A stretch of 64,000 nt of DNA. Origin: an uncultured Bacteroidota bacterium (GTDB lineage: Bacteria; Bacteroidota; Bacteroidia; Flavobacteriales; Flavobacteriaceae). Shown here one piece after another: positions 41,780 to 61,771 of this stretch (position 1 is the stretch's first letter; every line of letters begins with the position of its first letter). The notes under the pieces are model-generated. The model saw nothing but the letters and a program-made list of their open reading frames with translations, did not search any database and was not told the DNA's origin. The stretch spans positions 95,326 through 159,325 of the forward strand of contig CACHNE010000001.1 of assembly GCA_902581145.1 (NCBI GenBank). Reading direction: 5' to 3'. A program made the position numbers and the translations under genes.

Positions 41780-43399
41780 TTAAAATTTAATTTCCTTAGA
41801 GTGTATCTGGGTTGATTTATCGTAAGAAATATTTTTCAATATCAAATTTATGGCATCAATTCTTGCATCAATCTTTCTGTCTGCACTAATAATATTCCAA
41901 GGTGCTGTCTTAGTATTTGTTTTTTTAAACATCTCATCTTTATACTTGGTGTATTTATCCCAAAGTTTTTGAGCTTTACTATCAACCTCTGTAAACTTCC
42001 ATTTTTTTAATGAACTAGCCTTTATCTCATTAAACCTCTTTTGCTGAGTATTTTTAGAAATTGAAAAGTATACTTTTAATAATATAATATCATCGTCAAT
42101 TATCATCTCTTCAAAGGCATTGACATGATTCATAAAATTAGAATACTGCTCTTTTGAGCAAAAACCATTGACAGGCTCAACAACCGCTCTATTATACCAC
42201 GATCTGTCAAAAAAAACTATTTCCCCATGCTTAGGAAAATGTTGAACATATCTTTGAAAATACCATTGCCCCTGTTCAGTCTCAGACGGTTTTGGTAGAG
42301 CAATAACCCTAAGTTTCCTTGGATTAAGATTTTGAATTGCTCTTCTTATTGCTCCTCCTTTTCCTGCAGCATCTCTTCCTTCAAATACAACTATCACTTT
42401 TTTATTTTTTTCATAAACCCAGTTTTGAAGCTTTATCATTTCCAATTGTAACTTTTTTGATCTTCTTTCAAACTTAACATAGCGAAGTGTTTTGATCAAA
42501 GTTGTATCATCTCTTGACAATAAATTAATTAAGGCCTTATCTTTATTTAATAATTTTAAATCTTTGGTTGAATAGTTGATTTTTTTCTCATTTTTGACAG
42601 CTTTTGGTTTTAATTTGATGTTTTCGATTTCTTTCAATTTTTTAAATTTTGATAGCACATATTTTATTGAATTTACTCTTGCATCTAGCTTATCATTACT
42701 GTCTATAATTTTCCATGGTGCATATTCCATATTAGTCTCAGAAAACATTTTTTCTTTGTACTTAGTGTAAATATTCCATCTTTTCTGCCCCTCCATGTCA
42801 ACATCACTAAACTTCCAAGTTTTTAGCGGATTTGATAATCGATTTATGAACCTTATTCTTTGTTCCTTTTTTGAAATAGAAAACCATAATTTCAATAATA
42901 TAATTCCATCGTCAACCAACATTTTTTCAAAATTATTGACTTGATTCATGAATAATTCATAATCATTTTTTTTACAAAAACCCATTACAGGCTCCACAAT
43001 AGCTCTATTATACCAGCTTCTGTCAAAGAAAACCATCTCACCAGGATTAGGCATCTGCTTAAGATATCTTTGAAAATACCACTGACCTTTTTCTATATTG
43101 GTTGGTTCAGCCAAAGCAACAACACGTGAATTTCTTGGGTTTAAATGCTCGACAAATCTTTTAATCGCACCTCCTTTTCCAGCCGCATCACGACCCTCAA
43201 AAATTACACACAACCTTTTATTATTATTTATAATCCAATTTTGAAGATTAACTAGATCAGTTTGTAAGGCAACGATTGCTTTATTGTAATTACTTTTTTG
43301 AATAATTTTATTGTAGCGCTTCTCCGATAACTTTTCTTTGAGTAAAGACAAAAAATCATCTCTTTCATTGTGCTTATTTAATTCTTCAAATGATAACAT
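41780..43399 (-). CDS. Tandem-domain PPK2 family protein (polyphosphate:AMP phosphotransferase-like)
   Basis: Two PPK2 modules, each with VIFEGRDAAGKGGAIKR / VVFEGRDAAGKGGAIRR and FFDRSWYNRA(I/V)VEPV. Confidence 0.9.
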   Translation of the reverse strand: MLSFEELNKHNERDDFLSLLKEKLSEKRYNKIIQKSNYNKAIVALQTDLVNLQNWIINNNKRLCVIFEGRDAAGKGGAIKRFVEHLNPRNSRVVALAEPTNIEKGQWYFQRYLKQMPNPGEMVFFDRSWYNRAIVEPVMGFCKKNDYELFMNQVNNFEKMLVDDGIILLKLWFSISKKEQRIRFINRLSNPLKTWKFSDVDMEGQKRWNIYTKYKEKMFSETNMEYAPWKIIDSNDKLDARVNSIKYVLSKFKKLKEIENIKLKPKAVKNEKKINYSTKDLKLLNKDKALINLLSRDDTTLIKTLRYVKFERRSKKLQLEMIKLQNWVYEKNKKVIVVFEGRDAAGKGGAIRRAIQNLNPRKLRVIALPKPSETEQGQWYFQRYVQHFPKHGEIVFFDRSWYNRAVVEPVNGFCSKEQYSNFMNHVNAFEEMIIDDDIILLKVYFSISKNTQQKRFNEIKASSLKKWKFTEVDSKAQKLWDKYTKYKDEMFKKTNTKTAPWNIISADRKIDARIDAINLILKNISYDKSTQIHSKEIKF

Positions 43400-43402
43400 A
43401 AT

Positions 43403-43780
43403 TTAGAACGGAAGATCGTCTAAGTCTTCATCATTTGTTTCAGATGCAGGCTCAAATGGACTTAAATTATCGAGTGGGGGTAAGTCATCATCAGAACTAG
43501 AATTTTCTAAAAGTTCTATTCTCCACCCTTGAATCGAATTAAAATATTTTATTTCCTTAGTTTGTGGATTCTCCCATTCTCTACCCCTTAGATTAATACC
43601 AACTTTAACATTTTGACCAATCTCAAATTTATTTAACAGATCAGTTTTATCTTGGATAAATTCAATGGATAGTGTTTGTGGATATTGCTCATCGGTTGAA
43701 ACAACCAATTCTCTTTTTTTAAAAGTTGCACTGATTTCCTGAACTTCTCCTATAACCTTGATTGACCCTTGTACTTCCAT
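43403..43780 (-). CDS. DUF3127 protein with SSB-like acidic C-terminal tip (EDLDDLPF)
   Basis: MEVQGSIKVIGEVQEISATFKKRELVVSTDEQYPQTLSIEFIQDK...NLRGREWENPQTKEIKYFNSIQGWRIE; ends ...NDEDLDDLPF*. Confidence 0.88.
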   Translation of the reverse strand: MEVQGSIKVIGEVQEISATFKKRELVVSTDEQYPQTLSIEFIQDKTDLLNKFEIGQNVKVGINLRGREWENPQTKEIKYFNSIQGWRIELLENSSSDDDLPPLDNLSPFEPASETNDEDLDDLPF

Positions 43781-58780: not shown

Positions 58781-59660
58781 TATTTGATTTTTTATTTGTT
58801 AATATAACACCAAATACTATTATTAGTGTCGCTATTAATTGATAGATAGAGAATTTCTCTCCATCTACGATTCCCCAAAAGATAGAAACAATCAGCATTG
58901 AATAAGTTACAGAAGAAGCGAATACTGGACTTGAAATCTTTATAAGCTTATTAAAAATTATTTTAGCTAATGCTGTTCCAAATAGTGCCAATATAAATAC
59001 ATAAAATATCGAAGTTTTTACCTCACCCTTTTCTAAACTTGAAAACTCAAAGTCAGAAAATAAAAAAACCAAAATAGCAGGAAATATAATTGCTGTAAAG
59101 TGCCCTACTGTTATTGTTAAAGCTGAAAGGTGTTGAAGATATTTTTTTATAATATTAACGTTCAATGCATATAAAAACGAACAAAGAATCACCAATCCTG
59201 CATAATTATAATTTTGATCTGGATTTAGCTTAAGTCCTGATGTGATTAAGAGATATGTACCAAAAAAACCTATAAGGACTCCAATAATCTGCCTTTTGGT
59301 AGATTCTATTTTAAAAATAATCATTCCTAATATTAAGGTATTTAAGGGTACTATTGAATTGATTATTGATGCTACTGAGCTATCAATTTCTTTTTCAGCA
59401 AATGCAAACAAAAATGCTGGAAAAAAACTTCCCAAAAATGCAGAAATCGTTATCCATTTCCATTCTATTTTTTTAATTGTAAGAATATTCCTCCATGCAA
59501 TTAAAAAAATAAAAATTGAAGAAAATATAATTCTTAATGAACCAAGCTGAGAAGCCTCAAGACCGACTAAAGCTTTTTTTATCAAAATAAATGAACTTCC
59601 CCATATTAACGACAAAGCAATTAAATAAAACCACTTATTAAGTTTCATTTCATATTCCAA
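58770..59660 (-). CDS. DMT superfamily (EamA) transporter
   Basis: Multi-TM; ALSLIWGSSFILIKKALVGLEASQLGSLRIIFSSIFI; second EamA half with Y...FGTALAKIIFNKLIKISSPVFASSVTYSMLIVSIFWG. Confidence 0.9.
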   Translation of the reverse strand: MEYEMKLNKWFYLIALSLIWGSSFILIKKALVGLEASQLGSLRIIFSSIFIFLIAWRNILTIKKIEWKWITISAFLGSFFPAFLFAFAEKEIDSSVASIINSIVPLNTLILGMIIFKIESTKRQIIGVLIGFFGTYLLITSGLKLNPDQNYNYAGLVILCSFLYALNVNIIKKYLQHLSALTITVGHFTAIIFPAILVFLFSDFEFSSLEKGEVKTSIFYVFILALFGTALAKIIFNKLIKISSPVFASSVTYSMLIVSIFWGIVDGEKFSIYQLIATLIIVFGVILTNKKSNIKN

Positions 59661-60217
59661 TTAATAGATTCAAATAAAACTAAAATATCATTTTTAACAT
59701 ATTGAATTGACGGAAATATTGAATCGTAATTCGATTTAAATTTTAGATTAACCGAGCCGCTTATAAAATTTGAAAGACTGTCTGTAAGATAGAATTGAAC
59801 GGGAGATGCTACATCCCCTTTTATTTCATAAAGTTTTCCAAATATCCTCTTATTATGATTATCATATTCTCTTAAAATAACACCATTTGATTTTTTTGTG
59901 TGGGTGTCCAAAATTACATAAAAGTCACGTACTTTTTTTTCTATATCCTGACTGGTTTTAATGTTATAAAATGATAAATTAAGGGACAGGTTTAGATCCC
60001 TGTAGTCAAACAGAAATTGATTATTTCCAATTTGATCTAAATCAGTGGAATTTGAATTATAATAGAAATTAAATGGAGTATCTATTTCCTCATGATTCGA
60101 ATAATATGGTTCTTTAAATTCAATTCTAAGAAAGCCATTTTGCTTAGGTAAATTCGGCTCATTACAAGAGAAAATTATGAGAGTAAAAAAGAGTAGTGAA
60201 ATAATTATTTTACCCAT
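59645..60217 (-). CDS. gldD: Gliding motility lipoprotein GldD
   Basis: IIFSCNEPNLPKQNGFLRIEFKEPYYSN...TPFNFYYNSN...VASPVQFYLTDSLSNFISGSVNLKFKSNYDSIFPSIQYVKNDILVLFESINW; downstream of ssb. Confidence 0.88.
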   Translation of the reverse strand: MGKIIISLLFFTLIIFSCNEPNLPKQNGFLRIEFKEPYYSNHEEIDTPFNFYYNSNSTDLDQIGNNQFLFDYRDLNLSLNLSFYNIKTSQDIEKKVRDFYVILDTHTKKSNGVILREYDNHNKRIFGKLYEIKGDVASPVQFYLTDSLSNFISGSVNLKFKSNYDSIFPSIQYVKNDILVLFESINWNMK

Positions 60218-60256
60218 GTTAATATAAATTCTATATAAAGAAAATAAAATTTAATT

Positions 60257-60694
60257 CTAAAATGGTAAATCGTCGGTTTCTTCAACAGAATCAGAAACAC
60301 TCTCTACTTTCTTTTCATCAATGACTGGTGAATTATCGGATTGAGCTGGCATATCATTTTTATTAGATAAAAAGGTGAATTCAGTACAATTTATCTCAGT
60401 TGAGTACCTGTCATTTCCTTTATCATCTTGCCATTTTCTGGTCTTGATTCTACCTTCAATGTATACTTTATCACCCTTTGATAAATATTTTTCACAAATT
60501 TCAGCAGCTTTGTTTCTCAGGACGATATTATGCCATTCGGTATTAGAAACTCTTTCATTAGTTTGCTTATTCATATATGTTTCATTTGTTGCTAAAGGAA
60601 ATCTTCCTACGCATCCTCCATCCTCAAACCTGTGAATTTTTACCTCGTCTCCTAAATGACCAATTAACATGACTTTATTAAGTGTTCCTGACAT
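60257..60694 (-). CDS. ssb: Single-stranded DNA-binding protein
   Basis: NKVMLIGHLGDEVKIHRFEDGGCVGRFPLATNE...EWHNIVLRNKAAEICEKYLSKGDKVYIEGRIKTRKWQD; ends EETDDLPF. Confidence 0.95.
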   Translation of the reverse strand: MSGTLNKVMLIGHLGDEVKIHRFEDGGCVGRFPLATNETYMNKQTNERVSNTEWHNIVLRNKAAEICEKYLSKGDKVYIEGRIKTRKWQDDKGNDRYSTEINCTEFTFLSNKNDMPAQSDNSPVIDEKKVESVSDSVEETDDLPF

Positions 60695-60727
60695 AGTTTT
60701 TATTTTTTTCTAATTTACTATTTTAAC

Positions 60728-61771
60728 TTAAGATATACTCAATTCATGAGTATATTTTTCAATAAACTTGTGCATTAACTTTGACATTGGATATTCCTTA
60801 AATGAAGACACATAAATTCCCTCATCAACATTAATTTTATTCTCTGTTAACCAAAATCTAGATCTTATATTTATGTGGGATAATTTATGCTGAATAAATT
60901 CAGAATCAATCAGTTTAATCGTCAAATTTTTAGCTTGATATTTTTCTAATAAAAACTTTATAACCTCTTTTTTTGTCTTTTTAGATTCTGAAACATGAAC
61001 TGGAAACTGAAACATGTTCTTCCAAATCCCTTCTTTTATTTGCTCTATTAAAAATTGGTTTTTATGCTTGGCAACTATGTAATCAAAATACAACAACTTA
61101 ATCTTACTTTTGGAGCTCTTTACCGGATAATATTCCACAGAATTATTATTAAAAGCTGAACAAAATTTTGAAATAACACAAGATGAGCAAAGAGGGTTTA
61201 AAGGTTTACAGATAATTGATCCGAAGTCCATTAATGCCTGATTATAATCACCATATCTATCACTTGGCATCATTTCTTTAGCCTTCTCTTTAAATACTTT
61301 TCTTGATTTATTTAAATCTATTGGATTTTTGATTTCATATACTCTTGAAATAATCCGAAAAACATTACCGTCTAAAACTGGCTGAGATTTTTCAAAACAA
61401 ATAGATGAAATTGCACTAGCTGTATAATCCCCTATTCCTTTAAGCTTAATTAACTCTTCATAGGATTCAGGAAACTCTGAATTTAATTGATTATATATAT
61501 GTTTTGATGTATAATGTAAATTTCTAGCTCTTGAATAGTAACCTAAGCCTTGCCATAATAATAACACATCTTTTTCATCTGAAGTTGCCAAGGTTTTCAA
61601 ATCTGGAAACCTGGAAATGAATCTATTATAATAGTAAATTCCCTGTTCCATTCTAGTTTGCTGTAAAATAATTTCAGATATCCATATATTATATGGATTT
61701 TTAGTATGTCTCCACGGCAAATCTCTTTTGTTTTTATCATACCAATTTAAAATTAACTTATTGAGTGCCAT
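60728..61771 (-). CDS. mutY: A/G-specific adenine glycosylase
   Basis: NKRDLPWRHTKNPYNIWISEIILQQTRMEQGIYYYNRF...LKGIGDYTASAISSICF...LDGNVFRIISRV; Fe-S CxxxxxxCxxCxxxxxC. Confidence 0.95.
   Translation of the reverse strand: MALNKLILNWYDKNKRDLPWRHTKNPYNIWISEIILQQTRMEQGIYYYNRFISRFPDLKTLATSDEKDVLLLWQGLGYYSRARNLHYTSKHIYNQLNSEFPESYEELIKLKGIGDYTASAISSICFEKSQPVLDGNVFRIISRVYEIKNPIDLNKSRKVFKEKAKEMMPSDRYGDYNQALMDFGSIICKPLNPLCSSCVISKFCSAFNNNSVEYYPVKSSKSKIKLLYFDYIVAKHKNQFLIEQIKEGIWKNMFQFPVHVSESKKTKKEVIKFLLEKYQAKNLTIKLIDSEFIQHKLSHINIRSRFWLTENKINVDEGIYVSSFKEYPMSKLMHKFIEKYTHELSIS

Follow-up and report, generated by a model that had tools for sequence, protein, structure and literature searches.

DUF3127, an SSB-like protein family with a conserved Pro-Phe tip and a probable second single-stranded DNA-binding protein in Bacteroidota

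The locus and the shared DDLPF end

The window, i.e. the whole 64,000-nucleotide stretch of DNA analysed here, encodes two small proteins with the same C-terminal end, namely a DUF3127 protein and the canonical single-stranded DNA-binding protein (SSB). The features considered are as follows:

43403..43780, reverse strand: DUF3127 gene, 125 aa (PF11325, E 9e-29; PHROG 4932)
43511..43780, reverse strand: OB-fold domain, DUF3127 residues 1-90 (AF2 model, Foldseek)
43424..43510, reverse strand: Pro/acidic disordered linker, DUF3127 residues 91-119 (pLDDT 55-60; low column conservation)
43406..43423, reverse strand: SSB-Ct-like tip LDDLPF, DUF3127 residues 120-125 (conservation, codon diversity)
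60257..60694, reverse strand: canonical SSB, 145 aa (PF00436, E 2e-30), with the tip DDLPF at 60260-60274
59645..61771, reverse strand: gldD - ssb - mutY neighbourhood, the reference locus for the ssb presence test in a relative

The DUF3127 protein matches the entire PF11325 profile (1-85 of 85) with 100 bits, the Pfam gathering cut-off being 27. It terminates in ...ASETNDEDLDDLPF and the SSB in ...SVEETDDLPF, and the identity of the two ends, as pointed out in an earlier note on this DNA, is confirmed. Across the assembly of the window organism (1.29 Mb, 68.5% complete), DDLPF followed by a stop (GAYGAYYTNCCNTTYTRR) occurs at two sites, which are the DUF3127 and SSB genes, against one site for the reversed control pattern. 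The SSB at 60257-60694 is also the one PF00436 protein found in this 68.5%-complete assembly and falls in the tip-bearing SSB-A clade of the SSB tree.

Fold and kinship to SSB

The AF2 model of DUF3127, built from 57 sequences, is an OB fold with a pLDDT of about 95, where five strands (2-10, 21-29, 36-42, 57-70 and 77-90) are arranged with a helix (43-51) between strands 3 and 4, and the protein continues into a disordered linker and a conserved acidic-hydrophobic Pro-Phe tip. The comparison with OB folds proposed in the earlier note returned SSBs as the nearest solved structures (best Foldseek matches in the PDB, E 2e-6, probability 1.00); bacterial SSBs account for 48 of the 50 PDB matches listed, and the remaining two are the yeast mitochondrial SSB Rim1 and an OB protein of the trypanosome editing complex. 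The SSB-like or OB-fold nature suggested there is thus supported by the predicted fold, by the Foldseek matches and by the conservation of the tip.

Regarding sequence kinship, profile-profile comparison of DUF3127 with SSB gave 95.7% (E 1e-8) over an aligned part that takes in the tip, and the DUF3127 profile retrieved the Deinococcus radiodurans SSB 1se8 from the PDB (E 1e-7); the same database yielded no match to a single DUF3127 sequence, a profile being required. The window protein also matches PHROG 4932, "single strand DNA binding protein", over its full length (residues 1-125 vs. 1-117 of 117, E 1.1e-41). The window protein did not match PF00436, and a relative (G291:C87) matched it weakly, below the cut-off (E 9e-4). 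Together, these profile links and the missing PF00436 match indicate, at the level of sequence, that DUF3127 is an SSB-like family, distantly homologous to SSB and lying outside PF00436.

Canonical SSBs of PF00436, such as those of E. coli and Flavobacterium psychrophilum (FpsSSB), share with DUF3127 the OB fold, the disordered linker and an acidic (D/E)-x-L/I/V-P-F tip besides the distant sequence homology; FpsSSB, which ends in DLPF, is a biochemically normal tetramer (PMC3991886). Unlike them, DUF3127 has a shorter N-terminal half and scores below the PF00436 cut-off; a truncated canonical SSB was rejected as its identity. With respect to the stacking aromatics of E. coli SSB, the position equivalent to W88 is aromatic in 55/57 sequences and that of F60 is W in 19/57, whereas W54 has no evident counterpart in the DUF3127 alignment. 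Conserved aromatic or basic positions are F/W20, K22, Y33, R67, W69 and W86.

The resemblance of the tips could also stem from convergence, an OB-fold protein without kinship to SSB, such as one that binds RNA, having acquired an acidic Pro-Phe end. The replicative helicase DnaB of several genomes of a sister family (f2, see below) ends in DDFPF or DDMPF-type tails, which means that such ends can arise outside SSB, and a mitochondrial RNA-editing OB protein is found among the listed Foldseek matches. Convergence is nonetheless highly improbable, since SSB is indicated alike by the fold, the domain profile and the full-length PHROG match, the first two of which do not depend on the tip.

Conservation of the tip across the family

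DUF3127 is present in 172 of the 297 genomes sampled from the phylum, including nearly all those of the class of the window organism; the 14 control genomes yielded a single case, from a Bacteroides. PF is the end of 185 out of 188 distinct DUF3127 proteins. For 150 of them the end is exactly DDLPF, encoded by 64 different 15-mers, from which it follows that selection acts on the peptide; judging from these sequences, the tip is under purifying selection at the protein level, and a chance origin was rejected on the same counts. With a mean relative entropy of 3.1 bits per alignment column, the last six residues exceed both the domain (2.3) and the linker (0.95), and P124 and F125 are within the ten nearly invariant positions. 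The tip is therefore far more conserved than the linker, which was the comparison proposed in the earlier note for the terminal DDLPF. Two of the three proteins without PF belong to family f12 (L188 in G006 and L190 in G001), where DUF3127 ends in DDE or DEA and the PF tip is gone, and the third, probably prophage-borne, is an additional DUF3127 of G307 that is short and has no tail. In family f17, the tips have drifted to GDMPF, GDAPF, GEAPF or DDCPF.

Gene neighbourhood and phage copies

Of 80 loci from the Flavobacteriaceae, 66 retain the gene order GreA-HIT-kinase-DUF3127-Aat, and DUF3127 adjoins aat in the f2 genomes read here too. This shared neighbourhood speaks for DUF3127 being one core gene that is vertically inherited, separate from ssb, which lies by mutY and gldD. 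In the window, the adjoining gene (41780-43399) encodes a 539-aa protein that appears, by eye, to consist of two fused PPK2-type kinase repeats, and seven relatives with such a PPK2-like neighbour have no aat beside DUF3127.

The 111 phage records with DUF3127 concern hosts that are nearly all Flavobacteriia. These copies belong to the same family as the cellular proteins, with a full-length match including the tip, and in RefSeq they already bear the predicted name "single strand DNA binding protein", in agreement with PHROG 4932, whereas their cellular counterparts considered here still go by DUF3127 domain-containing protein. The phage copies differ in that they occur in genomes devoid of canonical SSB (no PF00436 protein at E<=1 in 7/7 tested DUF3127 phages) and, for some, in recombination modules, namely after an Erf annealase and a YqaJ exonuclease in phage P12024L and near RecT in Cellulophaga phages. 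In the open-licence literature, the term DUF3127 led to a Pantoea phage SSB and no mention of PF11325 was found.

The small size of DUF3127 and its location away from replication genes, in the gene order described above, would fit a regulatory or decoy protein, one that presents the tip in competition for the partners of SSB without coating ssDNA. This reading is very unlikely, considering that the OB fold is closest to those of SSBs, that the aromatic and basic positions listed above are conserved and that the gene is placed in phage recombination modules; moreover, a competitor makes little sense in genomes without an SSB tip, such as those described below.

A sister family where DUF3127 is kept and SSB decays

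The strongest result for DUF3127 as a second SSB is the pattern in f2, a family of the same order as the window organism and, judging from its size and diversity, probably the Weeksellaceae. All 45 f2 genomes tested have DUF3127, every one ending in LPF. Some genera retain an SSB with a DDLPF end; in other genera, the SSB belongs to the SSB-A clade and its end is eroded (ENTPF, HSEEI, HTEEF, MDLDD, DSEFN, VQHDF, NKDSN or KEMPF). In 14 genomes of 10 genera, a single PF00436 protein, which is tail-less, is accompanied by a tip-bearing DUF3127.

In three further genomes, each of a different f2 genus (G298, G307 and G308; drafts, each 99% complete), a sensitive SSB profile matched DUF3127 alone. 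For G298, about 1.2 of the 1.83 Mb of the contig was read directly, with 5 kb beside DUF3127 masked, and the rest was covered by profile search. Direct reading of its HU-mutY locus revealed neither ssb nor gldD; mutY is followed by two genes resembling, by eye, gldC and gldB. The mutY slot is thus intact DNA without ssb, and the absence there is real rather than an assembly gap. A fourth candidate, G310, was rejected as SSB-less because a divergent tip-bearing SSB, probably element-borne, is located just behind a tRNA-like stretch; only G298, G307 and G308 are consequently counted.

A loose DxPF pattern, applied to 29 genomes, gave about as many matches as its reversed control and was replaced by a stricter pattern combined with ORF inspection. 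These strict searches revealed in f2 no core SSB-type protein with a tip besides DUF3127, and DnaB or element-type proteins also match in some genomes. The SSB-tip-like acidic Pro-Phe tails of DnaB (L341 in G012, L367 in G308 and L368 in G298) read DDDDDFPF, DDDEMPF and DFDDMPF, the identity of the G012 protein as DnaB being confirmed by Pfam DnaB/DnaB_C.

In the SSB tree, which has few columns and many weak forks, the tip-bearing SSB-A stands apart from the tail-less SSB-B, whose clade has an SH-aLRT of 99, and the eroded f2 SSBs nest within SSB-A. The tail-less paralogue (L184, L204, L206, L210-L212, L216, L226 and others), about 115 aa long, makes up a clade of its own that spans order and class, and it is also present in the family of the window organism. 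A mixed complex could be envisaged on this ground, in which tail-less SSB-B coats ssDNA and a co-assembled DUF3127 provides the tip in trans; the 14 f2 genomes with exactly one, tail-less PF00436 protein next to a tip-bearing DUF3127 would fit, as would the single well-supported tail-less clade and its presence in the window's own family. Such an arrangement is unlikely, given that three f2 genera have DUF3127 and no detected SSB, that the window assembly (68.5% complete) shows no tail-less SSB and that phages carry DUF3127 without any PF00436 protein.

DUF3127 as a probable second SSB

Considering together the fold, the distant homology, the conservation of the tip and the phage and f2 patterns, we regard it as very likely that DUF3127 is a second SSB in its own right, able to take over the hub role. 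The basis of this reading is computational and consists of the predicted fold, the remote kinship to SSB, the conserved tip, the phylogenetic distribution and the empty ssb slot of one genome; from it we infer ssDNA binding, oligomeric state, partner docking and, in f2, essentiality. The SSB-type OB fold would bind and coat ssDNA, and the tip would dock the repair and replication partners of SSB. In the family of the window organism, DUF3127 would work beside canonical SSB and be redundant with it; in f2, it would have become the principal or sole SSB with a tip for many genomes, and at least three genera would have no other SSB-like protein, DUF3127 presumably being sufficient in parts of this family.

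Canonical SSB is commonly regarded as an essential hub protein found throughout bacteria. In E. coli, an SSB that lacks the tip or its Phe no longer binds its partners, and the loss is lethal (PMC10164576); bacteria would therefore be expected to require an SSB with a tip. DUF3127 is the sole core SSB-type protein with a tip in many f2 genomes and the sole SSB-like protein found in three genera, which makes an SSB a better reading than a competitor of SSB. Outright replacement of canonical SSB by DUF3127 in part of f2, with three genera lacking SSB, about ten more having only a tail-less one and DUF3127 acting as the sole hub of SSB type, is a somewhat more tentative proposal that we still favour.

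A second SSB within the same genome is also encountered in Firmicutes, in the form of SsbB. SsbB is a recognisable PF00436 protein, whereas DUF3127 is a distinct family, carried by nearly all members of its lineage and persisting longer than canonical SSB in some genera. If DUF3127 is indeed an SSB that replaces the canonical one in some lineages, an abundant gene of "unknown function", nearly universal in Bacteroidia-type lineages, would be explained, a natural test of what bacteria need from SSB would be at hand, and it would matter for the genetics of these bacteria as well as for work on drugs directed at their SSB.

SSB and DUF3127 tips in other families

Families f3 and f4 have SSB tips changed to DDFPY, GDLPY and EQPGF (L182 in G214, L213 in G033 and L214 in G270), and DUF3127 retains DDLPF or NDLPF in the same genomes; these are possible further cases of the shift described in f2. 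Besides, residue -3 of the tip covaries between SSB and DUF3127 (I/V vs. L; Fisher p 3e-5); no weight is placed on this, as all five matching I/V cases sit in two families whose SSBs form one clade and may reflect a single event.
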